Below are positions 1 to 30,394 of a DNA stretch of 64,000 nt, piece after piece. This DNA comes from Methylocystis sp. H62. GTDB taxonomy: Bacteria > Pseudomonadota > Alphaproteobacteria > Rhizobiales > Beijerinckiaceae. The notes beneath the pieces are model-generated. The model was not told the DNA's origin. It saw only the letters and a list, made by a program, of their open reading frames with translations, and ran no database searches. How positions within the stretch are numbered: the stretch's first letter is position 1; each line of letters begins with the position of its first letter. Position numbers and translations under genes: made by a program. The stretch lies in NCBI RefSeq assembly GCF_015709515.1, contig NZ_JADNQZ010000048.1:1-64000 (forward strand), written 5' to 3'.

Positions 1-522
<522 letters not shown>

Positions 523-570: not shown

Positions 571-1296
571 ATGTTGTCAGCGGAGCGTGACGTGATGGTG
601 CGCGCATTCCCGAATATCGACAGCGGCGGCTACGCATCTGCGGTGACGGAGAACGGGCGAAGCGTTACTGACGCTGCGCGCGTGTATCGCGACCTGACGG
701 GAGTTTTGCCCGAGGCGGCGAACATCGATGGCGACGCGCATTTCGACCGCCACGTTCTGGCGTCAATCCTCGCCTTAGCGTCGAGCGAGGGCGGAAGTCT
801 CGCGGCGCAAGCCGGTCTGACGGACACTGAACTCGGCGATCTCTTTTCTCATTGGTTTCTCGCTCGAAGCATTGAATCGTCTGGCGACCACGAGGCGAGT
901 GTCGTCGACGCCGACGAAATCGGAATTGTGCGAGATCTGCTTCTTGAAAATCGCTCCAGCGATGGGGACCACGGCCGCTGGCTCGCCGCGATGATCGCGC
1001 GCCGCGCCATGGAGCCCAACCATCTTTGGGAGGACCTCGGGCTTCGCGACAGAACGGAACTGACGCGGCTGATCGCGCGCCATTTCGCGCCGCTTGCGCG
1101 GCGCAATGACAAGAACATGCGTTGGAAGCGATTCATCTACCGCATGATGTGCGAGAACGACGGTTTCGTCATGTGCAGCACGCCGGTGTGCTCGAACTGC
1201 GCGGATTACGCACTCTGCTATGGCGCGGAAACAGGGACGAGCCGCGTCGCATCGGCGGCGCAATCGCCCGCGACGTCCGCCGAACAGACAGTGTAA
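571..1296 (+). CDS. nifQ: NifQ, molybdenum donor for FeMo-cofactor synthesis
   Basis: A 241-aa protein whose C-terminal part (about residues 185-220) has the NifQ signature: a WKRFIYRMMCE segment followed by Cys-X4-Cys-X2-Cys-X5-Cys. In known NifQ proteins these cysteines hold a Mo-Fe-S cluster that supplies Mo to NifEN/NifH for FeMo-co assembly. The N-terminal half is variable, as usual. Two starts are possible. ATG 571 has its Shine-Dalgarno inside the preceding stem-loop. ATG 595 has GGAG at 582-585 with good spacing and gives 233 aa. It follows nifH by 48 bases and is probably co-transcribed with it. Confidence 0.9.
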   Translation: MLSAERDVMVRAFPNIDSGGYASAVTENGRSVTDAARVYRDLTGVLPEAANIDGDAHFDRHVLASILALASSEGGSLAAQAGLTDTELGDLFSHWFLARSIESSGDHEASVVDADEIGIVRDLLLENRSSDGDHGRWLAAMIARRAMEPNHLWEDLGLRDRTELTRLIARHFAPLARRNDKNMRWKRFIYRMMCENDGFVMCSTPVCSNCADYALCYGAETGTSRVASAAQSPATSAEQTV

Positions 1297-1766: not shown

Positions 1767-1841
1767 ATGCGTGAAGCGATTGTGCGGTTGTTTCTTGGTT
1801 GCATAGAAGCGGGCGCCTCGAGCGTTCGTATGAGCCGATGA
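1767..1841 (+). CDS. Short coupled ORF (24 aa) in front of nifV
   Basis: Reading from ATG 1767 gives 24 codons. The stop TGA (1839-1841) overlaps the nifV ATG (1838) as ATGA. A textbook AAGGAG at 1754-1759 is correctly spaced for this ORF, while nifV itself has no clear Shine-Dalgarno. It may work as a translational-coupling leader for nifV or be a remnant of a lost gene. The peptide has a hydrophobic core (VRLFLG) and matches nothing I recognise. Confidence 0.4.
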
Positions 1842-3037
1842 CGACATATGTGCCCCGAAAGAGTTGGCTCCCTCCCGTCGCGTCGCCGACGCAGAGAGCG
1901 CTGGATGTGGTGTTGAACGACACCACGCTTCGGGACGGCGAACAGGCCCCCGGCGTCGCTTTCACCTGCGAAGAAAAGCTCGAAATCGCACGCGCCTTGG
2001 CGCGCGCTGGCGTCACTGAACTCGAAGCCGGAACGCCGGCGATGGGCGGCGTGGAGATCGCGATGATCCGAGCGATCGTCGACGCCCAATTGCCGTTGCG
2101 CGCCATCGCCTGGTGCCGAATGCGCGTCGAGGACGTCGATGCCGCGCTGGCGACGGGCGTTTCGATGGTCAATCTTTCCGTACCCGTCTCCGAGACGCAG
2201 ATACGTGCGAAATTGCGCGGCGGGCGCGCCCAGGCGCTGGAGATGACGCGGCGCGTCGTCGCTTACGCACGCGACAAGGGGCTCGACGTCGCGGTCGGCG
2301 GCGAAGATTCCTCGCGCGCCGAACCAGAATTCCTGATGGAGACGATGGCGGTCGCGCGCGCCGCCGGCGCTCGCCGATTCCGGGTCGCGGACACGTTGAG
2401 CGTGCTTGATCCTTTCGCCGCTTTCGATCTGATCGCTAAACTGCGCGCGCAGAGCGATCTTGAAATCGAAATCCATTGTCATGACGATCTGGGTCTCGCC
2501 ACCGCCAATACCCTGGCTGGCATCAAGGCAGGCGCGACGCATGCTTCGGTCACCGTGATGGGGCTCGGAGAGCGCGCCGGCAATGCGCCGCTCGAGGAAG
2601 TCGCCGTGGCGGCGCGTCAGTTGCACAAATATGAAACCGGGATTGTGCTCACCGAATTGCGCAACGTCGCGGCGCTCGTCTCCGCCGCGGCGCGTCGGCC
2701 GATCCCGCTCAACAAATCCATCGTCGGCGAGCACGTCTTCACACATGAGTCCGGCATTCACGTCGATGGGCTGCTCAAGGACCCCCGCACCTATGAAGCC
2801 TTCGATCCGAGCATGCTCGGGCGCGCGCATGAGATCGTCATCGGCAAGCATTCCGGCTCGGCGGCCGTCACCGCGATACTGCGGCAGCTGGATTTAGAGG
2901 TCAGTGTCGAGGAGCTCGGCGAGATCGTCTCCTGCGTGCGCGCCCATGCGCTTGATCACAAAGGGCCGGTCAGCGGCGAGGCCTTGACCTCGATCTGGCG
3001 CAGCGTCTGCGCGAGCACTCACGCGAGAGGCATGTGA
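1838..3037 (+). CDS. nifV: Homocitrate synthase NifV
   Basis: NifV condenses acetyl-CoA with 2-oxoglutarate to give homocitrate, the organic ligand of FeMo-co. The 399-aa protein is a DRE-TIM metallolyase: [16 protein letters not shown] near the N-terminus, [12 protein letters not shown] carrying metal-binding histidines, and [16 protein letters not shown]. Length fits NifV (380-400) and is shorter than LeuA, which has a C-terminal regulatory domain. I chose ATG 1838. An upstream TTG (1799) is in frame but unlikely. Translation is probably coupled to the 24-aa ORF ending here. Its presence suggests fixation in the free-living state, since many symbionts lack nifV. Confidence 0.95.
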
Positions 3038-3849
3038 GCGTCATGTTCGAACGAGTCGCCACAATGACCAACCAGGCAACGCAGGCTAAGGCGGCGACGG
3101 CGGCGACCTCGGCGCCCGAGCCGACGCGCTTGCAACTGATCCGCGAGGATCTGGCGTGCGTGGCGACACGCGATCCAGCCGCCCGCGGACGCTTCGAGAC
3201 GCTGCTCACATATCCCGGGCTGCACGCGGTCATCTGGCATCGCCTCGCCAATTGGCTGTGGATCAACGATCATCGCTTCTGGGCGCGTCTCCTCTCCTGG
3301 TTCGCGCGCTTTCTGACCAACGTCGACATTCATCCCGGCGCGACGATTGGCCGACGCTTTTTTATCGACCATGGCGCCGGCGTCGTCATCGGCGAAACGG
3401 CGGTCGTCGGCGACGACGTGACGCTCTATCACGGCGTGACGCTCGGCGGCGTCTCCTGGTCGCCGGGCAAGCGCCATCCGACGCTGGAAGACGAAGTGAT
3501 CATCGGCGCTGGCGCGAAGATTCTCGGTCCCATCACGATCGGCCGCAACGCGCGGGTCGGCGCCAATTCCGTCGTGATCGAAAGTGTGATGCGCGATGCG
3601 ACGGTGGTCGGAATTCCGGCGAAGATCGTGCATCGCGACGTCGGCCGCTGCACATTCGATGGCCGCATCAACCTCAATCACCATCTGATGCCGGATCCGG
3701 TCGGCGAGGCATTCTCGGTCCTGCTCGATCGCGTCGAGTTTTTGGAGACGCGCGTGTCGCATCTGCAAAGGCGTCTGCGGGAACGCCAGTCGACCGTCAC
3801 AGCCGCTGATGGCGCCGCGCCAAAGACGGAACCGGTGGAAATCATATGA
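3034..3849 (+). CDS. cysE: Serine O-acetyltransferase (NifP/CysE type)
   Basis: Acetylates serine as the first step of cysteine synthesis. Nif-linked copies (NifP) raise the cysteine supply for Fe-S cluster formation. The 271-aa sequence has the left-handed beta-helix hexapeptide repeats (about residues 95-190) and conserved [26 protein letters not shown] and HGVTLGG motifs with the catalytic His/Asp residues. GTG 3034 overlaps the nifV stop (GTGA). ATG 3043 or 3064 are alternatives, since the first 30 residues are low-complexity and Ala/Thr-rich. The position between nifV and nifW supports the nif role. Confidence 0.93.
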
Positions 3850-3860
3850 AGGAGACCAAA

Positions 3861-4187
3861 ATGTCGGAGCCCGCCGTTCTGGAGCAATTGAAAACGGCGT
3901 CCTGCGCCGAAGAGTTCTTCGCGCTGCTTGGCGTCGAATATGATCCGAAAGTGGTCAATGTCGCGCGCCTGCATATTCTGCGGCGCATGGGACAATATCT
4001 CTTCAGCGAGGATCTAGCCGAGCTGGACGACGCGACGGTGACCCAGCGCTGCAAGGACTTCTTGGAGCGCGCCTATCAGGACTTCCTGAAATCGACGCCG
4101 ATCGACGAACGTCTGTTCAAGGTTCACAAAGACGCCGTCAAGCCGGCGGCGCCGCCGTCATTGGTGCAGCTCAACGTTCTGAAGTGA
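3861..4187 (+). CDS. nifW: Nitrogenase stabilising/protective protein NifW
   Basis: A 108-aa protein with the NifW pattern: LKTASCAEEFFALLGVEYDP near the N-terminus, LHILRRMGQYL in the middle, and an FLERAYQDFLKSTP helix. NifW protects the MoFe protein or assists its maturation, notably under oxygen. I prefer ATG 3861, which has AAGGAG 6 bases upstream. ATG 3846, overlapping the cysE stop, would add five residues. It is in the same operon as cysE and fixA. Confidence 0.93.
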   Translation: MSEPAVLEQLKTASCAEEFFALLGVEYDPKVVNVARLHILRRMGQYLFSEDLAELDDATVTQRCKDFLERAYQDFLKSTPIDERLFKVHKDAVKPAAPPSLVQLNVLK

Positions 4188-4216: not shown

Positions 4217-5059
4217 ATGCATATCGTCGTCTGCATGAAGCAAGTGCCCGACTCGGCGCAGATCCGCGTTCACCCGGTGACCAACACGATCATGCGCCAG
4301 GGCGTTCCGACGATCATCAACCCATATGATCTGTTCGCGATCGAAGAAGCGTTGCGACTGCGCCAAAAATTCGGCGGCGCGGTCACCATTCTCACCATGG
4401 GTCCGCCTTCCGCCGAGGACAGCCTGCGCAAGGCGCTCACCTTTGGCGCCGATCGCGCGGTGCTGTTGACCGACCGCTTCTTCGCCGGCGCCGACACGCT
4501 GGCGACGACATATGCGCTAGCGACGGCGATCCGCAAGATCGGCGTGGAGTTTGGCCCGCCGCACGTCGTCTTCACCGGCAAGCAGACGATCGACGGCGAC
4601 ACGGCGCAGGTCGGTCCCGGCGTCGCCAAGCGGCTCGGCCTGATGCAGCTCACTTATGTCTCGCATATCGACAACGTCGATCTTGAGGCGGGAACGATCG
4701 ACGTCGAGCGGCGCAGCGAAGGCGGCGTTCAGAAACTGCGCAGTAAAATGCCCTGCCTGATCTCCGTCCTCGAGGGCGTCAACGAGATGCGCATTGGTTC
4801 GCTGAGCGATGCTTTGACGGCGGCGCGCGCGACGATCATCAAATGGAGCGCGCAGGACGCCGGCGTCGAGGACATCACCAAATGCGGACTGCGCGGCTCG
4901 CCGACGATTGTCAAGCGCGTCTTCGCGCCGAAGCCGCGTGCGGAAAAGGCCCAGTTCATCGAACTCGGCGACAAGCCGGGGGACGCCTTCGTCGATGAAT
5001 TGTTCAAGCGCCGGCCGAAACTCGAATCCGAGCTCGGACAATTGACGCGCGGCTATTGA
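4217..5059 (+). CDS. fixA: Electron-transfer flavoprotein beta-type subunit FixA
   Basis: A 280-aa ETF-beta family protein beginning [18 protein letters not shown]. It has the nucleotide-binding [29 protein letters not shown] region and the [20 protein letters not shown] motif typical of FixA. It pairs with FixB to form the bifurcating flavoprotein of FixABCX, which lowers the potential of NADH-derived electrons so that ferredoxin or flavodoxin can feed nitrogenase. It follows nifW by 29 bases with no room for a separate promoter, so it belongs to the NifA/sigma-54 operon. Confidence 0.96.
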
Positions 5060-5081
5060 TCTTGAAACAGGAGCGCGACAC

Positions 5082-6185
5082 ATGAACGATAAGGCAAAAG
5101 CTCCTGCTCCGGCGGGGCGCGCGGCGGCGAAAAAAGAGCTGCCTGAACATCTCAAAGCCTACAAGCACGTCTGGGTCTTCATCGAGCAGGAGCGGGGACA
5201 AGCGCATCCCGTGTCTTGGGAGCTGATGGGCGCGGGGCGGATTCTCGCCGATAAGCTCGGCGTCAATCTCGCCGCGGTCGTCGTCGGCGCGCGCAACGAG
5301 GCCACGCAGGCGGTCGTGCGGGAAAGCTTCAACTATGGCGCAGACCTCGCCTATCTCGTCGCGGACGATATCCTCATGGATTACCGCAATGAGAGCTACA
5401 CCAAAGCGATGACCGATCTCGTCAACGCCTATCAGCCGGAAATCCTGCTGCTGGGCGCGACGATTTTGGGGCGCGATCTTGCCGGCTCGGTGGCGACGAC
5501 GCTGCTGACTGGCCTTACCGCCGATTGTACGGAACTGGACGTCGATGCGGAAGGTTCGCTCGCGGCGACGCGTCCGACGTTCGGCGGCTCGCTGCTCTGC
5601 ACGATCTTCACGCTCAACTATCGCCCGCAAATGGCGACCGTGCGCCCGCGCGTGATGCCGATGCCGGAGCGCGTCGAAAAGCCGATCGGCCGCGTGATCG
5701 AACATCCGCTCGGCTTGGTGGAAGACGACATTGTCACGAAAGTGTTGTCCTTTCTGCCCGACCGCGATTCGACAAAGTCCAACCTGGCTTTCGCCGACGT
5801 GGTCGTCGCGGGCGGCCTCGGCCTCGGCTCTCCGGAAAACTTCCAGCTCATCCGTCAGCTGGCGAGCACGATCGGCGCGGAATTCGGCTGTTCGCGCCCG
5901 CTGGTGCAAAAGGGATGGGTCAGCTCTGACCGGCAGATCGGCCAGACCGGTAAGACGATACGGCCCAAACTTTATATCGCCGCGGGCATTTCCGGCGCGA
6001 TCCAGCATCGCGTCGGCGTCGAGGGCGCGGACTACATCGTCGCGATCAACACCGACAAGAATGCGCCAATCTTCGATTTCGCTCATGTTGGAATCGTCAC
6101 CGACGCGGTACGGCTTTTGCCTGCACTCACGGAAGCGTTCTCGAAACGATTGTCTCCGCATCAGCGCGACCGTCTAGCGAGCTAG
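5082..6185 (+). CDS. fixB: Electron-transfer flavoprotein alpha-type subunit FixB
   Basis: A 367-aa ETF-alpha family protein. The N-terminal domain starts near residue 25 ([24 protein letters not shown]) after an Ala/Lys-rich tail. The C-terminal FAD-binding domain contains [17 protein letters not shown], the [25 protein letters not shown] motif and [12 protein letters not shown]. FixB holds the FAD that passes electrons to FixC. It lies 22 bases after fixA with GGAG before the ATG. Confidence 0.96.
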
Positions 6186-6196
6186 GGGAGATAGGC

Positions 6197-7504
6197 ATGA
6201 TCGAAGAAAGATTCGATGCGATTGTCGTCGGCGCCGGCATGGCCGGCAACGCCGCCGCCCTGACCCTGGCGCGCAAGGGACTTAAAGTCCTGCAGTTGGA
6301 GCGCGGCGAATATTCCGGCTCCAAGAATGTGCAGGGCGCGATCCTCTATTCCGACATGCTGGAGAAGCTTATCCCGGATTTCCGCGAGGACGCGCCGCTG
6401 GAGCGCCATCTCGTCGAGCAGCGCTTTTGGATGATGGACGACAACTCCCATACGGGACTCCATTATCGTTCGGACGAATTCAACGAGGAGCGTCCCAACC
6501 GCTACACGATCATCCGCGCGCAATTCGACAAATGGTTCTCCAAGAAGGTTCAGGAGGCCGGCGCGGTCGTGCTGTGCGAAACCACGGTCCTGGAGTTGCT
6601 GCAGGACGCCTATGGAAAAGTCATTGGCGTGCGCACGGACCGCAAGAACGGACAGGTTGGCGCGGACGTTGTCGTGCTGGCGGAAGGCGTGAGCGGGCTG
6701 CTCGGCACAAGAGCCGGCCTGCGCAAGACGCCCGACAAGAGCAATGTCGCTCTGGCGGTGAAGGAAATGCACTTCCTCCCGCAGGAAACTCTGGAAGCCC
6801 GCTTCAATCTGCGCGGCGACGAAGGCGCGGTCATCGAGGCGGTCGGCACCATCTCGCAAGGCATGACCGGGATGGGCTTCATATACACCAACAAGGAGTC
6901 GATCTCGCTTGGCATCGGCTGTCTCGTCGCGGACTTCGAGAAGACGGGACAGACGCCGTACGGACTGCTGGAAAAGTTCAAGCAGCATCCATCGGTGGCG
7001 GCGCTCATCGCAGGCTCTGAAGTCAAGGAATACGCCGCGCATCTGATCCCCGAAGGCGGCTTCAAGGCGATCCCGCAGCTCTTTGGCGACGGCTGGGTCG
7101 TCGTTGGCGACGCCGCGCAGTTGAACAACGCCATCCATCGCGAAGGCTCAAATCTGGCGATGACCTCCGGACGGATCGCCGCGGAAGCGATCTTTCAGAT
7201 CAAATCGCGCCGCGATCCGATGACCAAGGAGAATCTGGCGCTCTACAAGAAGATGCTCGACGAGTCCTTCGTCATGAAGGATTTGAAGAAATATCGCGAC
7301 ATGCCGGATCTGCTTCACATTCAGGCGCAGAACTTCTTCCTGACCTATCCGCAGCTCGTCTCGAAGGCGATGACGAATTTCCTGCGCGTCGACGGCACGA
7401 CGAAGCGGGAAAAAGAGAAGACCACGTTCCGCTCCTTCCTGGCGGCGCGTTCGCTGACCGGACTGGTCGGCGACGCCTTTCGGCTGGCGCGCGCGTGGAG
7501 GTAG
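6197..7504 (+). CDS. fixC: FixC, ETF-quinone oxidoreductase-like flavoprotein
   Basis: A 435-aa FAD protein with the N-terminal dinucleotide-binding motif [19 protein letters not shown] and an ETF-QO-type middle domain. The second FAD motif is [14 protein letters not shown]. FixC takes high-potential electrons from FixAB to quinone while the low-potential branch goes to ferredoxin. It is membrane-associated rather than membrane-spanning. Length and order (A-B-C-X) are standard. Start at ATG 6197 with GGGGAG upstream, 11 bases after fixB. Confidence 0.96.
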
Positions 7505-7540
7505 TTGGGCGCGATGCCCCTCTAGCAACGGAGTAGGACA

Positions 7541-7837
7541 ATGAGCGCAGAAGCAGCGGTCCGGGTGGAGGACAAGCTTTACCTCAATCGCTATCTCGTC
7601 GACGCCGGCCGCGCCCACATCAAGGTGCGTCCGCACACCACGCCTTCGCCGCAACTGCTCAGTCTGGTAAACGTCTGTCCGGCGCACTGCTATGAAATGA
7701 ACTCGACCGGGCAGGTCGAGATCACGACCGACGGCTGCGTCGAATGCGGCACCTGCCGGATCATCGCCGAGCCGAGCGGCGACATCGAATGGAACTATCC
7801 GCGCGGCGGCTACGGCGTGCTGTTCAAATTCGGCTAA
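7541..7837 (+). CDS. fixX: Ferredoxin-like protein FixX
   Basis: A 98-aa ferredoxin-like subunit that closes the fixABCX set. Cysteine motifs are visible: [10 protein letters not shown], then [14 protein letters not shown] (Cys-X2-Cys-X2-Cys), matching the FixX/ETF-QO ferredoxin domain that carries [4Fe-4S] centres. The C-terminus ([19 protein letters not shown]) is a family hallmark. It acts with FixC in electron transfer to quinone or ferredoxin. GGAG is present upstream. Confidence 0.96.
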
Positions 7838-7875: not shown

Positions 7876-8490
7876 ATGAAATTCTATATGACGCCCGGAT
7901 CCTGTTCCACGGGCATACACATCCTGCTCGAAGAGATCGGGCTGGTGTTCGAGGCTTATATCGTCAATCTGGTCAAGGGCGATCACCTCAAGCCGGACTA
8001 TCTGGCGATCAACCCGCATGGGACGATCCCGACTCTGTTGCGCGATGACGGCGTCGCGCTGACGGATTTTCACTCCATCGCCCTATGGCTTGCGCAGACC
8101 TATCCGCGCCGCAAGCTCCTGCCGGAGAGCGTGGAGGCGCGCGAAGCGGCATTGGCCGCCATGCATTTTTGCGTTCAGCATATTCATGGCGAAGGCTTTC
8201 GACGCGTGTTCACGCCGGAGCGCTACGCCGGGCGGCAGGCCGACATCGAGGCGATCAAGGCCGAAGGACGCGAAATCGTCGTCTCGGCGCTGATCGCGAT
8301 CGATACGGAACTCGCGGGAAAGGACTATGTCGCCGGCGGCTTTTCGGTCGCCGACGCGGCGCTGTTCTATGTGGAGTTTTGGGCCGACAAGACGGGCATG
8401 ACGCTGCCGCGCAATTGCCAGGCGCATTACGCGCTTATGAAAACGCGCCCGGCCGTGCGTCAGGTGCTCGCTGAAGAAGGCTATCGCTGA
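7876..8490 (+). CDS. Glutathione S-transferase-like protein
   Basis: A 204-aa protein with an N-terminal thioredoxin-like GST domain (MKFYMTPGSCSTGIHILLEEIGL..., cis-Pro in NPHGTIPTLL, then TDFHSIALWLA) and an all-helical C-terminal domain with AGGFSVADAALFYVEF. The SCSTGIHILLEE segment fits bacterial beta-class GSTs. Start ATG 7876. Lying 38 bases after fixX on the same strand, it is probably read with the fix operon and may protect nitrogenase from oxidative or electrophilic stress. The substrate cannot be told. Confidence 0.85.
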   Translation: MKFYMTPGSCSTGIHILLEEIGLVFEAYIVNLVKGDHLKPDYLAINPHGTIPTLLRDDGVALTDFHSIALWLAQTYPRRKLLPESVEAREAALAAMHFCVQHIHGEGFRRVFTPERYAGRQADIEAIKAEGREIVVSALIAIDTELAGKDYVAGGFSVADAALFYVEFWADKTGMTLPRNCQAHYALMKTRPAVRQVLAEEGYR

Positions 8491-8573: not shown

Positions 8574-8999
8574 TCAATGGCGCTTGTCATGCGCATTATC
8601 CGGATCGTTGCGCATCCAGTCGGCCAGCTTTGCGAGATTTTCACGCAGGCCTTCACGTATGCCGACGTCTTCGATCGTCGTATCCAGCGCGCCGTTCATG
8701 CACAGCATCCAGGCGTCGCGCTCGGCCGGACCGATGCGCAAATGGCTATGCCGCATGCGCAGGCGCGGATGCCCCTTCTTGGCGGAATAATCCTTGGGGC
8801 CGCCGAGCCATTCGGCCAGATAGACCTTCAAAATGGCGCGCGTCGGTCCAAGATCGTCCGCGTGAACGGCGCGTATGCCGCGCGCTTCCGGTAACTCGTC
8901 CATGTTGCGGTAGAAGGTTTCGACAAGCCGGTCGACCGTGTCGAAGCCGCCGATGCGATCGAATATGGATACGGTATGGTCGATAGTGGTCGTCGTCAC
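8574..8999 (-). CDS. Group II truncated haemoglobin
   Basis: A 141-aa 2-on-2 globin. SIFDRIGGFDTVDRLVETFYRNM gives the B-helix with the Phe-Tyr pair that contacts bound ligand. WLGGPKDYSAKKGHPRLRMRHSHLRIG holds the proximal-His F-helix region, and ERDAWMLCMNGAL the G8 Trp typical of group II. The start is GTG at 8999 (no suitable ATG), 11 bases after the XdhC-like gene, so they are co-transcribed. In a diazotroph it may scavenge NO or O2 near nitrogenase. It converges on the GST gene; the 83 bases between show no clear terminator. Confidence 0.9.
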   Translation of the reverse strand: MTTTTIDHTVSIFDRIGGFDTVDRLVETFYRNMDELPEARGIRAVHADDLGPTRAILKVYLAEWLGGPKDYSAKKGHPRLRMRHSHLRIGPAERDAWMLCMNGALDTTIEDVGIREGLRENLAKLADWMRNDPDNAHDKRH

Positions 9000-9010: not shown

Positions 9011-9880
9011 TCAGTGATAGGATACGGTAAGGGGCCGTGTCCAATGGCGTGTGTGGGCCGCTTTGGCGATCACGCGATAGGCGGCGTCCGCTATGGCGCG
9101 CCCATATTCGTCGGTGCCTGTCCAAGTCGAGGCGCGCCCGCGCGGATCGACCTCGACGAGTTTGACATCTTGCGGCACGACGACCCCGTCGCGCGCAATG
9201 CCACGCAGGAAGCCGTCCATCGGCGAAAGGACGCGGTGACCGTCGAGGAGCCCGAGGAGGTAGTCCTTGAAGATTCTGGCGCCAACGTCGAGCGGCGTGC
9301 GCCAAACGCCATCTCGGGCGGAATAGACGAAGCGGCCGCGGCCGACGCCGCCAAGATAGCGCGGAAGGTGGTCGTTGGGCCGAGTTTCGCCGGTTTCGAC
9401 GAGGTCGCCGGCATGGTCGGGATGCGTCTCGATGGCGACGTCGCAGTTCAAGCCGGCGGCGAAATGCGGGCCGAGGCCGATGGCGAGATTGGCGATCTTG
9501 CGCAGATTGGTCGTCATGCGGTTCTTTTGCATTCGCGCGTCGATCAACACGTCGGGGGTGCGGAGCGCGAGGAGATCGGTCAGTTGCAGCGAGGTCACCG
9601 CGACGACGCCGGTTACCGTCAACACCCGTACGATTTCCAGCGCAGTCTCGCCGCGGTAGCCCTGAATGCCGTCGACCTCGGCGCGATCTTGGAAAAGAGC
9701 GTCGTGGAACGACATGCCACGCCGAATGACGGGCGGGTAAGGGTCGTGACTGAGCACGACGCGGTAGCCTTCCCGCGTCAGACGCGCAGCCACCGCCGAA
9801 GCAATCTCATTCGCGCCCAAAACGATCACGAAGGGGGCGCTTCGCTTGGACAGAAATTCGCAGAATCGCACGTGTGTCAT
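9011..9880 (-). CDS. XdhC/YqeB-like molybdoenzyme maturation protein
   Basis: A 289-aa protein with a Rossmann-like N-terminus (FVIVLGANEIASAVAARLTREGYRVVLSHD), then PPVIRRGMSFHDALF and a long C-terminal domain. This matches the EF2563/YqeB branch of the XdhC family, known for selenium-dependent molybdenum hydroxylase maturation. No molybdenum hydroxylase is in the window, so a role in Mo handling near nifQ is only a guess. I chose ATG 9880 (GGGGGGA upstream) over TTG 9907. It lies in a minus-strand operon with the haemoglobin and Rieske genes. Confidence 0.75.
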   Translation of the reverse strand: MTHVRFCEFLSKRSAPFVIVLGANEIASAVAARLTREGYRVVLSHDPYPPVIRRGMSFHDALFQDRAEVDGIQGYRGETALEIVRVLTVTGVVAVTSLQLTDLLALRTPDVLIDARMQKNRMTTNLRKIANLAIGLGPHFAAGLNCDVAIETHPDHAGDLVETGETRPNDHLPRYLGGVGRGRFVYSARDGVWRTPLDVGARIFKDYLLGLLDGHRVLSPMDGFLRGIARDGVVVPQDVKLVEVDPRGRASTWTGTDEYGRAIADAAYRVIAKAAHTRHWTRPLTVSYH

Positions 9881-9960
9881 CGTCCCCCCGCGCCCCAGCG
9901 AAAGCAAGACGCACGCCAGCGACTGAAGCGACGCGCGTCTTCGCTGCGTCGCCGAATGCG

Positions 9961-10275
9961 CTACAAAGCCACGTAAACGAACTTCCCCGCCTTCAGTCCG
10001 GGATAATTTTCGCGCAAGGCGTTCGCGATCTTTCCGACGAGTGTCTTGTCGGCGGCGGCCGAGACGCCGACGAAATCAGTTCCCTGCATCCAGGTTTCGA
10101 AGAAGCAGTGCAGCGTCTCGTCGTAGTCGGCGCCGGTGGGATTGGCGGTCTTGTCGCTAAGATCGGCGACTCCCGCGGCGCTGACCTCGAGACGCCAGTC
10201 GCGGTCGTCTTCGACGGACGCCATCAGCCTGGCGAGATCGTCATTCGTCCAATCGGTCTTCAGATCCACCGCCAT
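9961..10275 (-). CDS. Unknown 104-aa protein in nif accessory operon
   Basis: Function not recognised. The protein is acidic, soluble and intact, with an N-terminal DLKTDWTNDDLARLMASVEDDRDWRLEV block, a YDETLHCFFETWMQGTDFVGVSAA core (one Cys) and a C-terminal GLKAGKFVYVAL. AAGGAAGGTGGG precedes ATG 10275, a good ribosome-binding site. It lies 55 bases after the Rieske gene and upstream of the XdhC-like gene on the same strand, so it most likely belongs to the sigma-54-driven unit starting near 10697. Confidence 0.7.
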   Translation of the reverse strand: MAVDLKTDWTNDDLARLMASVEDDRDWRLEVSAAGVADLSDKTANPTGADYDETLHCFFETWMQGTDFVGVSAAADKTLVGKIANALRENYPGLKAGKFVYVAL

Positions 10276-10330: not shown

Positions 10331-10663
10331 TCAGGGTTCTGCGAAGATCGGCGCGACGCCTTCGGCGTCGATGTAGACGACGCCGTCTTCGATCCGCACC
10401 GGATATTCGGCGAGCGGCGTCGCGTGCTCGTGGGTGGGTTGGCCGCTGTTCATGTCCCACGACCAGAAATGCAGCGGACAGGTCAGCGTCGTCCCATCGA
10501 AATCGGCGTCCGCCAAGGGAGCGTTGGTGTGCGGACAGACTCCCTGAAACGCCTTTACGACGCCGTCTTCCGGCCAGGCGAGAACGATGAGTTGCGCGTC
10601 GGCGATAACCACGCGCATTCCGCCCTCCATGAGGGTGTCTTCCTTGCAGACGCGAACAAACAT
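10331..10663 (-). CDS. Rieske-type [2Fe-2S] ferredoxin
   Basis: A 110-aa single-domain Rieske protein. Cluster ligands are in CPHTNAPL and CPLHFWSWD, that is Cys-X-His and Cys-X2-His. No transmembrane anchor or signal peptide is seen, so it is a soluble electron carrier like those serving dioxygenases, not a bc1 subunit. Start ATG 10663 with GGAG upstream. First gene of the four-gene minus-strand set, preceded by a sigma-54 promoter match. The reductase encoded at 15290-16252 is a plausible partner (inference). Confidence 0.9.
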   Translation of the reverse strand: MFVRVCKEDTLMEGGMRVVIADAQLIVLAWPEDGVVKAFQGVCPHTNAPLADADFDGTTLTCPLHFWSWDMNSGQPTHEHATPLAEYPVRIEDGVVYIDAEGVAPIFAEP

Positions 10664-10707: not shown

Positions 10708-10722
10708 GCAAGATTCGAGCCG
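10708..10722 (-). promoter_or_regulatory. Sigma-54 promoter toward the Rieske operon
   Basis: On the minus strand CGGCTCGAATCTTGC matches the -24/-12 elements at correct spacing. The expected start is near 10697, about 34 bases before the Rieske ATG. It is interlocked with the plus-strand promoter at 10682-10696: each start falls inside the other promoter. Confidence 0.6.
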
Positions 10723-10743
10723 GGACGGATGGGAGGCGACGCC

Positions 10744-10986
10744 GTGCATAACAAGCGCTTGGAGGCGTTTCGCAATGATCCGGGCGGCGCCTGGACGCCC
10801 GCCGATTTTGAAATCACCGCCTCGCAATATGCGATCAAGTTCCGCAAGGTGACGGGAACGCATGTCGTGTTCACGCATCCTTCCGTGCCCAATTGCGTCG
10901 CCATCCCGATGAAGGCGAAGGTGAGAAGCGTTCACGTGAAGGCCTTCGTCGCGATGGTAGACCTCATGGATGAGTTGGACAAATGA
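10744..10986 (+). CDS. HicA-like small protein (possible mRNA interferase)
   Basis: An 80-aa protein if started at GTG 10744, which has GGGAGG 7 bases upstream; ATG 10729 adds five residues. The segment FRKVTGTHVVFTHPSVPNCVAIPMKAKVRSVHVKAFVAMVDLMDEL resembles the dsRNA-binding-like HicA fold, with the conserved Gly-X-His in GTHVVF. HicA proteins are translation-dependent mRNA interferases. Its stop overlaps the HicB-like start (ATGA), the usual hicA-hicB coupling. Its place behind a sigma-54 promoter in a nif region suggests co-expression with nitrogenase rather than a stray toxin-antitoxin module. Confidence 0.75.
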   Translation: MHNKRLEAFRNDPGGAWTPADFEITASQYAIKFRKVTGTHVVFTHPSVPNCVAIPMKAKVRSVHVKAFVAMVDLMDELDK

Positions 10987-11201
10987 GCGAGGCGCCCGTC
11001 TATCGAACCGAGCTCGGCCGCGGACCGCCAGAGGAGGGCGGCTATTACGTGCTGTCTTATCCAGAGATTCCCGGCTGCTTTGGCGTCGGCGGCACCGAGG
11101 CGGAGGCGGTGGAGGATGGGCGCCGCGCGCTGATCGCCGTGCTCGATGCGCTAAAGGCGGTCGACCGGCCGCCGCCAGAGGCGCGGGGGGAGAGCGCGTG
11201 A
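10983..11201 (+). CDS. HicB-like antitoxin-type protein
   Basis: A 72-aa protein with the HicB N-terminal fold: YYVLSYPEIPGCFGVGGTEAEAVEDGRRALIAVLDAL. The usual C-terminal DNA-binding (HTH or RHH) domain of full-length HicB is absent; the tail is only a Pro/Arg-rich stretch. It may therefore neutralise or partner the HicA-like protein without autorepressing the operon, which is instead under sigma-54 control. It overlaps the previous gene by ATGA and the next by GTGA. Confidence 0.8.
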   Translation: MSEAPVYRTELGRGPPEEGGYYVLSYPEIPGCFGVGGTEAEAVEDGRRALIAVLDALKAVDRPPPEARGESA

Positions 11202-11664: not shown

Positions 11665-13362
11665 CTACGCCGCATGCGCCGTGTCGAGGCCGCGGAAGAT
11701 CGCGCAGCGGCGGAAAACGGCGACGCTCGGCGGCACATTCTTCTGGTGGCAGAACTTCGCCGTGAGCTTCGCCAACCCCTTTATGTCGCGGCCCGTGGCG
11801 GCAGGGAAAATCTCAACGAGGTCGTCGATGAGCGCGTCATCGACGTTGAGCGCGAATTGCTCGGTCATCACGCGCCAGATCCGGCGCTTCGCGTCAGCGT
11901 CTGGCGGGTTGTATTTGATCAGCGCGATGCAGCGCGAGACGATCGCCTCGTCGATGTCGTCGACGCGGTTCGTCGTCAGGAAGAGCAGACCATTGAAATA
12001 TTCGAGGACGCGCAGGAAAACGCCGACGACGGCGTTCATCGCGATGTTGTCGTCGCGGCGCTTGATATAGACGTCCGCCTCGTCAATCAGCATCACCGCT
12101 CCCCAGCGCTGGGCGCGCGTCAAAATCTCTTTTAGCGCCGTCTCCATCGTGCCGACGTTGAGGCCCAGTTGTCCCGAATGCACGCGGTACAAGGGACGCT
12201 GGATGATTTCCGAATAGACTTCCGCCGTCAGCGTTTTGCCGACGCCGGGCGGGCCGGCGCAAAGAACCGTCGTGCCGCCGGATTTGCCTTGGACGATGTC
12301 ATCCATCAGCACGTCCATTTCGGCGGTCAGAATGTCGATGAGATCCGTCTGCTCCTCCGGCAGCACCAGCTTGCTCTTCAACTCGGGCTGATAGCGATAA
12401 GGCCGCATCTCGTCGACATGCACCCAGACGTGATGGTGCAGATCGAGATGGAACATCAGAATGTAGGGATGCACGGGAACTTGCGTGAAGAGTCCCGGCG
12501 GAATCTGTTCGCGCAGCTCGGCGATTTCGTCCTCGCCGGAGAAATTGTTGCTCTTGCCCGCCTTGCGCAGAAAATGCCCGAGCACGTCGCCCGGCGCCTC
12601 CAGCGTCAGATTGCGCGCCGAGAGCACCGCCTCGTCATTGACGAGGCGCGCCTCGCCGCCGCTCGTCGAGAGCACGATGACGTCCTTGCGCGTCCAGTCC
12701 GTGTCGCGATGCGTGGCGTTGGGATCTTCGGCGTGAAAGCCGGAGCCCTTGCCGGAAAATTGCGCGCCATAGCGGCCGCGCCAATCAAAATAAGTCTCGC
12801 TCGCCGCGTCGAAGGCCTCGATCAAAGCCGGCGTCTCGCGCAAGAAGCCCTTGGCGGCGAGGATTTCGCTGATCGTTCGGCCGACGACATCGGGCGCCAT
12901 GATGCGCATGAGATTCGTTTGCAGCGTGCCCTTGGCGTTGGCCTTCAGTTCCACCAGGATTTTGCCGGCCTCGTCATTGGAGGTCGGCACATAGTCGAAG
13001 CGCGTCACGACATAGGGCAGCGCCTTGGCGGCGACGCTCGCCGTGAACAGCCAGCCGCGCAGCCCGTCGGTCATCAGATATTTGACCAGCGCCGGCAACA
13101 CGTCCTCAAGATCGCCCGCTTCGAAGCGCTTGCCCTGCGACTCGAGCGCCGAGCGCAGCGTCGCAAGCTGCGCGGCTCTGGCGCGCAATTCGGGACCCGA
13201 TTGCTGATACAGCTCCTCGAGGAAATCGAATTCGGCGCCAGAGAGATGCGCGAGATCGAGTTCGACTCTGTCGCCGAAACGCAGTTGCGACGAGAGCCCC
13301 GAATGGGCGGGAAAGCGCGCAATCAGCGCTTCGACATGCGGCCTTTCAATTTGAATGTTCAT
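11665..13362 (-). CDS. AAA+ ATPase coupled to a SagB-like nitroreductase
   Basis: A 565-aa protein. The N-terminal ~330 residues form a domain I do not recognise. The C-terminal half is a AAA+ module: Walker A GPPGVGKT, Walker B VMLIDEADVYI, sensor-1 LFLTTNRVDDID, arginine-finger region EAIVSRCIALI, and a helical lid ending near residue 545. It resembles proteasomal/CDC48-type remodelling ATPases and may unfold or activate a protein partner. ATG 13362 overlaps the stop of the upstream SagB-like gene (ATGA), implying a 1:1 functional link. Its substrate is unknown. A nif role is inferred from location. Confidence 0.8.
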   Translation of the reverse strand: MNIQIERPHVEALIARFPAHSGLSSQLRFGDRVELDLAHLSGAEFDFLEELYQQSGPELRARAAQLATLRSALESQGKRFEAGDLEDVLPALVKYLMTDGLRGWLFTASVAAKALPYVVTRFDYVPTSNDEAGKILVELKANAKGTLQTNLMRIMAPDVVGRTISEILAAKGFLRETPALIEAFDAASETYFDWRGRYGAQFSGKGSGFHAEDPNATHRDTDWTRKDVIVLSTSGGEARLVNDEAVLSARNLTLEAPGDVLGHFLRKAGKSNNFSGEDEIAELREQIPPGLFTQVPVHPYILMFHLDLHHHVWVHVDEMRPYRYQPELKSKLVLPEEQTDLIDILTAEMDVLMDDIVQGKSGGTTVLCAGPPGVGKTLTAEVYSEIIQRPLYRVHSGQLGLNVGTMETALKEILTRAQRWGAVMLIDEADVYIKRRDDNIAMNAVVGVFLRVLEYFNGLLFLTTNRVDDIDEAIVSRCIALIKYNPPDADAKRRIWRVMTEQFALNVDDALIDDLVEIFPAATGRDIKGLAKLTAKFCHQKNVPPSVAVFRRCAIFRGLDTAHAA

Positions 13363-15014
13363 GTTCGCTCGCGCATCTCGTCGGGGTAGGCGGGGAGCGT
13401 CAGCATGCGCGGATCTTCCAGCGCGGCGCCGACGGTGAAGTGGTAGACGTCCTGAAAGGCGTATTGCTCTGGCGACAGACCGAGCATCGCGTGAATCTCG
13501 TCGTCGAAGAAGCAACCGATCCCCGTGCCGGAGAGGCCGATGGCGCTGGACCAGAGATAGAGCGCCTGGCCGATCGCGCCGGCCTCCCAGTGCAGCCGGC
13601 GATAGCCGAAGCCGCCGTCCTCTTGAAGCGTGCGATCGAAATCGGCGATCATCGCGACGGCGAAACAGCCCTTGCCGGCGATCGCCTGGCGACAGGCGTT
13701 CATGCTCGCCTCGCGTTCGACCGCGCCTTGCCGCAGGCGAAAGAGTTTAAGCGGCCCGATCTCGATCGGCGTCCAAAGCAACGCCAGCGCCGACATCTCG
13801 CGCAACCGCGCCGTGGTTTCAGCGTCGCGCTGCAGCAGATAGAGTCCGGGCTCCACGCCTTCGACGCGATGCACGAAGAGCAGCAGATTTAGTCGCGGCG
13901 GCCAGGAGAAGGGCGCCAGGCAAGGCTCGGCGCCGAGAAGCGTCGACGTCAGCATGGCGCAAAACGCCTCCTGCGAGAGGCGGGCGATTCCGTCCATACG
14001 CTGCGCGCTGCGCCGACGCCGCACCACGCGCCCGATGTCCGGCAGCGGGAACGGGAAGGCGGGTTTGGGCGCAATGCGCGACATGGGCTCCAATGTCGGC
14101 GTGTGGGGCTTGACGCAGAACCGCGTCGCGCGGTCGACGAGCGGCCAGCCGTCGTGGTCGTCGCTCAAGCGATTTGCCGCGCCCGACCAGGTTCGCGGCG
14201 CGCGCGCAAGGTTGGAGACGTCAATGGCGGGAGGCGCGTTCCCATCAGCGGCGATCCACAGAAGCGCATCGGGATGTTCTTCCTCGCGCCGATGAGAAGC
14301 GTCCGGCCGATCGAGTCCGAGCAGCGCCGCAATGTCGGCGTCGCCCGGTTCGCACAAAAGACGCGCGCGCCAGCCCAGCGCGGCGGCGGCCTCCGCGGCG
14401 GCGCCGATCGCATGGCCGACGTCGAGTTGGCAATAGCGAAACGCCCGCTCGCCATATTTCCAGCTTTCGCGCCAGGGGACGGAACTCAGTCCGAGCAGAA
14501 AGCCACCCTCGGGCAGAACGAGCGGCGTTTCAAAATCAGCGCGCCGCTCCAGCGCATGATCTTCCGGCGCATAGTGATAAAGCGCGGCGGTCTCGCCGAG
14601 CCCCTCGGCGGCGTTGGCGAGGAGATAGGCTTCGGTCGGATGTAGATTGCCGGAAGACGGATTGTTGCGAAGCGCCCACGTCGAGCCTTCGTAACTTTTC
14701 CAGGCGCTGATCCCGAAGCCGAGCTCCATGAACAGGCCGAGCGCCACGCGGTCGAGCGGCGCGGCGCGCAGCGCGGGGCCGGGAAAAGGCGCGGTCTCTT
14801 CGCGATCGCGTAGCGGCAGTTCGATGCGCGGCGCGCCCTCGAAGCGCCGGAAGGGCGAAGGCTGCGAGGTCCAGTCGAGAAAGGCCGGCCCAAGCGCGTA
14901 GCGCGTCGGGGCATGTTTCGTGCGCCTGTGATAGCCGCGGATGTCGCTTGGCAGAGCGTCGGCGTCCTGCGGGCGTTCTTTCAGGCTCTGAATTTCGGTT
15001 TCGGCGTCAGCCAT
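13359..15014 (-). CDS. SagB/ThcOx-family tandem nitroreductase-like protein
   Basis: A 551-aa protein with two FMN nitroreductase-like domains. The first (about 60-275) has NNPSSGNLHPTEAYLL, the SagB/ThcOx hallmark, and WKYGERAFRYCQLDVGHAIGAAAEAAAALG. The second (about 315-545) has RRRRSAQRMDG..., YRRLHWEAGAIGQALYLWSSAIGLSGTGIGCFFDDEIH and a C-terminal YHFTVG strand. Such proteins oxidise azolines in modified peptides, but no YcaO/cyclodehydratase or precursor gene is nearby, so another redox role is likely. GAGGAGA precedes ATG 15014. It is the first gene of a two-gene operon with the AAA+ ATPase. Confidence 0.82.
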   Translation of the reverse strand: MADAETEIQSLKERPQDADALPSDIRGYHRRTKHAPTRYALGPAFLDWTSQPSPFRRFEGAPRIELPLRDREETAPFPGPALRAAPLDRVALGLFMELGFGISAWKSYEGSTWALRNNPSSGNLHPTEAYLLANAAEGLGETAALYHYAPEDHALERRADFETPLVLPEGGFLLGLSSVPWRESWKYGERAFRYCQLDVGHAIGAAAEAAAALGWRARLLCEPGDADIAALLGLDRPDASHRREEEHPDALLWIAADGNAPPAIDVSNLARAPRTWSGAANRLSDDHDGWPLVDRATRFCVKPHTPTLEPMSRIAPKPAFPFPLPDIGRVVRRRRSAQRMDGIARLSQEAFCAMLTSTLLGAEPCLAPFSWPPRLNLLLFVHRVEGVEPGLYLLQRDAETTARLREMSALALLWTPIEIGPLKLFRLRQGAVEREASMNACRQAIAGKGCFAVAMIADFDRTLQEDGGFGYRRLHWEAGAIGQALYLWSSAIGLSGTGIGCFFDDEIHAMLGLSPEQYAFQDVYHFTVGAALEDPRMLTLPAYPDEMRERT

Positions 15015-15289: not shown

Positions 15290-16252
15290 ATGGACGAAAC
15301 TCTGCGTGAAGTGATTGTGGCCAAGAAGAGCGAGGAGGCCCACAATATGGCCTCGTTCGAACTGGTCGATTCCACCGGCGCCGAACTGCCGACCTTCTCG
15401 CCTGGCGCGCATGTCGACGTCACGCTTCCCGGCGGTTTGGTGCGGCAATATTCCTTGTGCAACAGCGCCACCGAACGCCATCGCTACGTCATTGGCGTGT
15501 GGAACGACGCCAACAGTCGCGGCGGCTCCAAGGCGCTGCATACGCAAGTGAATGTCGGCGACAAATTGCAGGTGGGCTTGCCGAGAAATCGGTTTCGCGT
15601 GCCGCGGCAAACGAAACGCGCGATCTTGATGGCGCGAGGCATCGGCGTGACGCCGATCCTGAGCATCGCCGACCATCTCAAGCGCCAGGACATTCCCTTC
15701 GATCTGCACTACGTCTACGCAATGATGTCGCCGCGTTCATTCAGCGAGATGATCGCGACGTCGAATTTCGCGGAGAATACGAAATATTATTATGAGGCGA
15801 GCGAACTCAATCAGCTGCTCAATCCAGTGACCCTTCTGCAGGACCAACCGGAAGAGACGCAGCTCTTCATCTGTGGCGTGGATTGGTGGCAGGATCCGAT
15901 CATCCACCTCGCCGAGCAGAAAGGTTGGGCGAAGGAGCGGATCCACGTCGAAAGATTCACCGCGAAAGTGCCGCCGGCCGTGCTCGACAAGGTCTTCGAA
16001 GTCAAGATCGCCAGCACCGGAGCCGTTTATAAAGTCCCCGGCGACAAGACCGTCACGGCTTTCCTCGAGGAGCAGGGCGTCAAGATTCCCACGTCCTGCG
16101 AACAGGGCATGTGCGGAACTTGCAAGATCCAGGTCATCGAAGGCGAGCCGGACCATCGCGACAAGCGTCTCTCCGATCAGGAAAAGGCGGACGGCTTTTT
16201 TCTGGCCTGCGTCTCGCGCGCCAAGAGCAATCTGCTGGTGCTGAATTTGTAA
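15290..16252 (+). CDS. Phthalate-dioxygenase-reductase-type oxidoreductase (FMN, NAD, plant-type [2Fe-2S])
   Basis: A 320-aa three-domain electron-transfer protein. The flavin domain (about 1-105) has RQYSLCNSATERHRYVIGV. The NAD(P)H domain (about 105-225) has MARGIGVTPILSIADHL and the LFICGVDWW motif. The C-terminal plant-type [2Fe-2S] domain has CEQGMCGTCKIQV and a final FLACVSRA Cys. Relatives include VanB and the PDR family, which reduce Rieske oxygenases. No oxygenase alpha subunit is present, so the target may be the soluble Rieske protein at 10331 or a nif-linked electron acceptor. It is the last gene on the nif side before the photosynthesis genes. Confidence 0.9.
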   Translation: MDETLREVIVAKKSEEAHNMASFELVDSTGAELPTFSPGAHVDVTLPGGLVRQYSLCNSATERHRYVIGVWNDANSRGGSKALHTQVNVGDKLQVGLPRNRFRVPRQTKRAILMARGIGVTPILSIADHLKRQDIPFDLHYVYAMMSPRSFSEMIATSNFAENTKYYYEASELNQLLNPVTLLQDQPEETQLFICGVDWWQDPIIHLAEQKGWAKERIHVERFTAKVPPAVLDKVFEVKIASTGAVYKVPGDKTVTAFLEEQGVKIPTSCEQGMCGTCKIQVIEGEPDHRDKRLSDQEKADGFFLACVSRAKSNLLVLNL

Positions 16253-29569: not shown

Positions 29570-30394
29570 ATGGCCCTGCTGAGTTTCGAGCGAAAATATC
29601 GCGTGCGCGGCGGCACGCTCATCGGCGGCGACCTCTTCGATTTCTGGGTCGGCCCGTTTTACGTCGGCTTCTTCGGCGTGACGACGATCATCCTTTCGTC
29701 GCTCGGCACGGCGCTGATCATCTGGGGCGCGGCGATGGGCCCGACCTGGAACATCTGGCAGATCAACATCGCCCCGCCCGATCTTAAATATGGTCTGGCG
29801 CTCGCGCCGCTGAAGGAAGGCGGGCTCTGGCAGATCATCACCTTCTGCGCGACCGGCGCGTTCATTTCATGGGCGCTGCGCCAGGTCGAAATCTGTCGCA
29901 AGCTCGGCATGAACTATCATGTGCCCGTCGCCTTCGGCTTCGCGATTTTCGCCTATGTGTCGCTCGTCGTGATTCGTCCGCTGCTGCTGGGCGCCTGGGG
30001 CTTCGGCTTCCCCTACGGCATCATCAGTCATCTCGATTGGGTGTCGAACACCGGCTACCAATATCTGCATTTCCACTACAATCCCGCGCATATGATCGCG
30101 GTGTCGTTCTTCTTTACGACATGTTTCGCCTTGTCGCTGCACGGCGCGCTGGTGCTATCAGCGACCAATCCCGGCAAGGGCGAGGCCGTGAAGACGCCCG
30201 AACACGAAGACACATTCTTCCGCGACTCGATCGGCTACTCCATCGGCACGCTCGGCATTCATCGGCTCGGCCTGTTCCTGGCGGTGTCCTCCGCATTCTG
30301 GAGCGCGGTGTGCATGATCATCAGCGGCCCGTTCTGGACACGCGGCTGGCCCGAGTGGTGGAACTGGTGGCTCAATCTTCCCGTCTGGCGCTAA
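29570..30394 (+). CDS. pufL: Photosynthetic reaction centre L subunit PufL
   Basis: A 274-aa subunit with five membrane helices. It begins [36 protein letters not shown]. Conserved [40 protein letters not shown] contains the special-pair and accessory bacteriochlorophyll His residues. [18 protein letters not shown] carries a ligand His of the non-haem iron. GAGGGAGGC lies upstream. Confidence 0.98.

Follow-up and report, generated by a model that had tools for sequence, protein, structure and literature searches.

A SagB-like double nitroreductase and an AAA+ ATPase beside nif genes in Methylocystis: a candidate accessory module

What would bring a SagB-like double nitroreductase and an AAA+ ATPase together in one overlapping gene pair beside nitrogen fixation (nif) genes? 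The question is raised by a 64,000-nucleotide stretch of Methylocystis sp. H62 DNA (contig NZ_JADNQZ010000048.1, positions 1 to 64,000 of the forward strand; hereafter the window). An earlier reading of its letters alone, here the sequence-only reading, had proposed that the two proteins form a system for maturing, protecting or repairing an oxygen-sensitive enzyme. We found both families associated with nitrogen fixation across genomes, and we assign a probability of roughly 0.5 to the reading that the pair is an accessory nif module maturing or protecting nitrogenase or its iron-sulfur (Fe-S) partners. The pair is laid out as follows.

11665..13362, minus strand: AAA+ protein P0001, 565 amino acids (PF00004, 63.8 bits)
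13359..13362, minus strand: ATGA overlap of the SagB stop and the AAA+ start, kept in 14/14 paired loci
13359..15014, minus strand: SagB/ThcOx-like double nitroreductase P0002, 551 amino acids (TIGR03605; PF00881 in both halves)

Association with nitrogen fixation

Genomes were scored for nifD-family matches at a limit of E 1e-60, which also admits related subunits; counts over the cut-off are stated where they differ. Among 149 genomes of the strain's own family, the source genome included, a nifD-family match was present in 30 (29 over the cut-off), the AAA+ gene in 25 and the SagB-like gene in 22. The AAA+ gene occurred in 24 of the 30 nifD-positive genomes as opposed to 1 of the 119 nifD-negative ones, and the SagB-like gene in 21/30 as opposed to 1/119; in one genome (G411), the AAA+ match was limited to residues 152-564.

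A sample of 299 Pseudomonadota genomes gave nifD-family matches in 37 (35 over the cut-off). An AAA+ relative of at least 55% identity was found in five of the 299, every one with a nifD-family match (four over the cut-off); in genome G068 that match lies below the cut-off and the AAA match contains an internal stop. Two weaker AAA+ matches (42-45%) both fell in genomes lacking a nifD-family match. The SagB family was present in 33 genomes, 20 of them with nif. Fisher tests in this sample, not corrected for descent, returned 2e-5 for AAA+ with nif and 6e-13 for SagB with nif. We also took the best 80 of 323 AAA relatives from a species-genome scan and tested 50 of those 80 genomes: 47 held a nifD-family match (44 over the cut-off) and 45 a SagB family member. 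One of the three misses (L098) has nifB and nifT inside its AAA locus.

The AAA+ gene tracks nif in all three samples, in line with the sequence-only reading, and we regard the nif association as very probably real. That reading had also considered that the pair might prove widespread in non-diazotrophs; the AAA+ gene turned out to be nearly confined to nifD-positive genomes, whereas the SagB family does reach non-diazotrophs, mostly without AAA+.

Distance to nifHDK, which the sequence-only reading had named as a check, was shorter for SagB than for AAA+. Of 41 genomes with SagB and nifD, 19 had the two no more than 10 kb apart (2-6 kb) and 26 had them on one contig, whereas AAA+ was within 20 kb of nifD in 7 of 44 genomes and on the same contig in 15/44. 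In the source genome nifD is on a different contig from the pair; in Methylocystis rosea SV97 (L054, G300) the two are 37-39 kb apart. When we examined the flanks of the 80 AAA loci, at most 10 kb per side and often shorter, 27 contained a nif-specific gene, 13 of these with nifHDK, nifB, nifN or nifX.

The arrangement varies. In Bradyrhizobium (L103), Azorhizobium (L105) and Afipia (L126), nifS-like, nifT and nifB genes come after AAA+, and in L103 and L126 nifN and nifX lie on its opposite side. In Methyloversatilis (L102, L119) and a Methylobacillus metagenome-assembled genome (MAG; L112) it is flanked by nifHDK and by the nifN/nifX/nifQ side, and Methylococcus-type loci (L075, L078, L093, L095) run nifV, nifW, AAA+. 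The nif plasmid of Methylococcus sp. EFPC2 carries AAA+ and SagB in its nif region, far apart. That plasmid has clpP, clpX and lon as well (L130 7330-11831), with the nifQ region on one side of them and a flavodoxin gene on the other.

Promoter sites of the nitrogen fixation type were enriched among AAA+ relatives. Upstream of AAA+, a sigma54-like site was found in 26/60 loci (9.3% of random 300-mers from the same loci), a NifA site in 10/60 (4.5%) and both together in 8/60 (1.2%); nifH control promoters had both site types in 5/5 cases. Upstream of SagB both sites were found in 4/23, every one Bradyrhizobium.

The two proteins and their pairing

The description of P0002 as a fusion of two SagB/ThcOx-type domains was upheld: the SagB domain profile TIGR03605 scored 102.5 bits over the whole protein against a cut-off of 78.4, and PF00881 matched each half, placing two nitroreductase domains in one chain. 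In a fold search its predicted structure resembled 3eo7. The motifs PSSGN (119-123) and RRS (334-336) are kept in nearly all alignment rows, and binding of flavin mononucleotide (FMN) is a prediction. Cysteines 195, 441 and 501, possibly redox-active, are invariant in the 32-row alignment; C441 and C501, unlike C195, are also kept in 12/12 non-nif SagB rows.

P0001 has, as claimed, a complete AAA+ module, at about residues 331-560 (the PF00004 match), with Walker A (370-377), Walker B (423-428), sensor 1 (463-465) and an SRC motif (476-478) whose R477 may serve as the arginine finger. The AAA core was modeled at low confidence. The N-terminal half had been called novel, and residues 1-330 indeed matched no known family; the fold search barely tested this half, because the VIA-align rows listed span mostly residues 321-560. 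Cysteines 368, 478, 538 and 553, again possibly redox-active, are invariant in the 58-row alignment. An anti-phage role for P0001 was considered and set aside: its IetA and TRIP13 matches are limited to the AAA module (no search for the protease partner IetS was made), and three distant plasmid relatives (33-44% identity) lie among ordinary plasmid genes.

The source genome holds one full-length copy of each gene. Their predicted ATGA overlap is present, and from its form we infer translational coupling. In the family sample, AAA+ was present in 22/22 SagB genomes; the 30 nif genomes divided into 21 with both, 3 with AAA+ only, none with SagB only and 6 with neither (Fisher p 1.4e-4 for the SagB-AAA+ association, not corrected for descent). 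Among the 45 AAA-holding genomes with both genes, the two were at most 10 kb apart in 17. Four Methylocystis-type loci (L058, L060, L064, L065) have an AAA+ copy near a nifS-like gene with no adjoining SagB; L058 and L056 come from one MAG, which therefore has two AAA+ copies.

Elsewhere AAA+ has other close neighbors. An amine-oxidase-type flavin adenine dinucleotide (FAD) protein ends 30-193 bp upstream of it in seven loci, six from Bradyrhizobium (L076, L092, L097, L099, L101, L118) and one from a Xanthobacteraceae MAG (L087), with SagB following within about 2-3.5 kb except in L076, where the contig ends first. A relative of the reductase gene that follows the pair in the window (about 68-69% identity) adjoins SagB in four of the Bradyrhizobium loci (L092, L097, L099, L118). 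The FAD protein is also found in the Methylococcus plasmid nif region (L130 15584-17176), a second flavoenzyme linked to AAA+. De novo neighbor clustering added a zinc-ribbon protein; this clustering takes in shadow open reading frames, and the zinc-ribbon neighbor alone was used from it.

The locus and the proposed role

The window comes from a Methylocystis-type genome. Its 5' end lies within a nifH copy, followed by nif and fix genes, the pair and a divergent reductase. The annotation also places an IscA-like gene between nifQ and nifV. The nifQ, Rieske, molybdenum-maturation-like and HicAB-like neighbors pointed out earlier are all there, the YqeB/XdhC-like and HicAB-like matches falling below cut-offs.

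1..513, plus strand: nifH copy truncated by the contig edge, 3' part only (90% identity with Methylococcus NifH)
571-1296, plus strand: nifQ
1799-3037, plus strand: nifV
3034-3849, plus strand: cysE
3846-4187, plus strand: nifW
4217..7837, plus strand: fixA and fixB by family, fixC and fixX read by eye (order same in related loci)
7876..8490, plus strand: glutathione S-transferase-like protein (relative in 33/80 AAA loci)
8574..8966, minus strand: truncated hemoglobin (PF01152, 112.7 bits)
9011..9907, minus strand: YqeB/XdhC-like protein, molybdenum-cofactor related (profile score below cut-off)
9961..10275, minus strand: small protein of no known family (no Pfam match; relatives in 10/80 AAA loci)
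10331..10636, minus strand: Rieske-type 2Fe-2S protein (PF00355; Rieske relative in 14/80 AAA loci)
10720-11198: weak HicA-HicB-like pair (both members below Pfam cut-offs)
15290..16252, plus strand: flavin/2Fe-2S reductase, divergent from the pair (PF00111, 60.4 bits; FAD/NAD domains weak)

Downstream of the nif accessory genes lies a photosynthesis gene cluster (genes tested at 16336-60476) in what is a methanotroph-type genome, with two reaction-centre genes (PF00124) at 29570 and 30413 and BchY/Z-, BchH- and BchL-like and carotenoid genes assigned by reading. The carotenoid part also adjoins the pair in L050, L051 and L054.

We propose that both genes would form an accessory layer of the nif gene set in some proteobacterial diazotrophs, among them several that, going by their genus names, are known aerobes. 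P0001 is most likely a hexameric, ATP-driven remodeling motor whose N-terminal half most likely recognizes a nif client or adaptor. P0002 is most likely a fused pseudo-dimer flavoenzyme with one FMN between its halves, and it would carry out a redox reaction, its substrate being a protein or cofactor of the nif pathway. The coupled operon of the Methylocystis group suggests the same client for both. The motor would expose or load a nitrogenase-pathway Fe-S protein that is immature, wrongly assembled or damaged by oxygen, at which the flavoenzyme would then give or take electrons, perhaps fed by the adjoining flavin/2Fe-2S reductase. The analysis observed the families, the fold, the ATGA overlap, the co-occurrence with nif, the placing of part of the loci in nif clusters and the sigma54/NifA-type sites of relatives, whereas the hexamer, the client, the single FMN site, the redox direction and the cooperation are what we infer; for joint action of the two proteins we judge the chances about even. 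Given an ATP-driven remodeler, a flavin-dependent redox enzyme, neighbors of the Fe-S and globin kinds and a distribution restricted to a subset of diazotrophs, the simplest role is to mature or protect an oxygen-sensitive client.

Our literature searches returned no nif-linked SagB or AAA+ protein apart from studies of Azoarcus olearius BH72. In an RNA-seq study (PMC8467165), azo2278-2280 are 490-, 373- and 443-fold up on N2, and Azo2278 is given two nitroreductase domains of very low similarity, the authors recommending that its connection with N2 fixation be investigated. Azo2278 resembles P0002 in having two such domains, a likeness of description rather than sequence. From the same strain, azo3791, a conserved hypothetical ATPase, is among eight genes with RpoN and NifA sites in PMC3916325; it may belong to the AAA+ family of the window. 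A microoxia-induced nitroreductase of Bradyrhizobium diazoefficiens, blr4652, appears in PMC6515984.

Several observations weigh against the accessory-module reading. Strict adjacency of the two genes was found in 8 of the 45 genomes with both, all from the Methylocystis/Methylosinus/Methylocella group, and 29 of the 33 SagB genomes of the phylum sample lacked AAA+ (4/33 hold it), while 13/33 had no nifD-family match. Methylosinus sporium DSM 17706 (G383/G304, the genome of L063), the one nif-free holder of both genes in the family sample, has no nifD match. Both genes are absent from six of the family's 30 nif genomes, including one from the strain's own genus, so N2 fixation as such does not require either. 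No nif-specific gene was seen in the examined, often short flank of 53/80 AAA loci. Within 500 bp of the pair in the window and in L050-L057 there was no sigma54-like site (at least 8/12) and no NifA site; among 15 paired promoters a sigma54-like site of 9/12 was found in L061 only and a NifA site in 0/15. In the SagB tree the window type clusters with four non-nif rows, apart from the nifD-near clade. Because branches there are long, this placement may reflect displacement within the SagB family or a tree artifact. SagB genomes of the family sample have one SagB match each, so that within the family one SagB type seems to substitute for the other; two matches occurred in 3/50 AAA-holding genomes. 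That Azo2278 belongs to the SagB-like family is only a lead. Of the two-component proposal, the nif link held across genomes; the notion of a fixed pair suffers from the rare adjacency and from SagB standing mostly alone in the phylum sample, and the role itself is conjectural.

The strongest alternative keeps the nif link of both proteins but gives them separate tasks: the AAA+ protein would remodel one nif client and the SagB-like protein would do another redox job, the Methylocystis operon being a lineage accident of co-regulation. The rare adjacency, the phylum-sample SagB genes lacking AAA+, the position of the Methylocystis SagB type outside the nifD-near clade and the FAD and zinc-ribbon proteins as other AAA+ neighbors agree with it. 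However, SagB was never without AAA+ in the family sample, and the ATGA overlap was retained in all paired loci. We consider separate action a tentative, minority possibility.

That the pair shields Fe-S proteins at large from oxidative stress, rather than nitrogenase in particular, with diazotrophs simply needing this most, appears unlikely. The truncated hemoglobin and glutathione S-transferase neighbors and the SagB genomes lacking nif are compatible with it, as is a SagB relative that lies among Fe-S assembly genes (cysteine desulfurase, SufU, BolA, Grx4, NifU and LipA), along with SelO, on a Polaromonas plasmid; PMC6015842 describes that plasmid as bearing Fe-S and oxidative-stress genes. 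Yet AAA+ occurs almost only in genomes with a nifD-family match, and relatives carry NifA/sigma54-type sites. It is very improbable that the SagB-like protein, by analogy with mycobacterial Acg, keeps FMN in store or sequestered and so supports flavodoxin or further flavoproteins involved in N2 fixation. Hardly credible is a SagB that modifies a ribosomally synthesized and post-translationally modified peptide with a YcaO encoded elsewhere in the genome: TIGR03605 is above its cut-off and the genome has one YcaO, but this lies on another contig rather than beside SagB, as the sequence-only reading had noted of the locus (the precursor peptide had no dedicated search), and SagB relatives are found near nifD.

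How aerobic diazotrophs protect their oxygen-sensitive nitrogenase is a long-standing question and a limit on introducing N2 fixation into new hosts. As conserved families that follow nif with a strong occurrence signal, the two provide a candidate for maturation or repair that can be tested directly; minimal nif sets taken from organisms without them would omit them.

Comparison with known systems

Both families fall in known superfamilies and were found here under general names only. The SagB-family oxidases ThcOx/CyaGox and McbC act with YcaO on precursor peptides, whereas P0002 has nif neighbors and no adjacent YcaO. The structure that the P0002 model resembles, 3eo7 (Ava_2154), is a nitroreductase of Anabaena variabilis that its entry title calls putative. 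P0001 differs from p97/VCP, FtsH and the proteasomal AAA ATPases in its unmatched N-terminal half, its one AAA module and the lack of an aromatic residue in the stretch LGLNVG, which we take to be the pore loop. The AAA module of P0001 matches IetA, the ATPase of the anti-phage system IetAS, at 55.3 bits; the match is confined to residues 326-534, and many contexts of the P0001 family are nif clusters. An AAA+ protein with an unclassified client-recognition half that, together with a flavin oxidoreductase, repairs or revives oxygen-damaged nitrogenase-pathway proteins in aerobic diazotrophs would amount to an activase of nitrogenase (or of a nif Fe-S protein), a doubtful but conceivable form of the accessory module, likened to the Rubisco activases that act on Rubisco.

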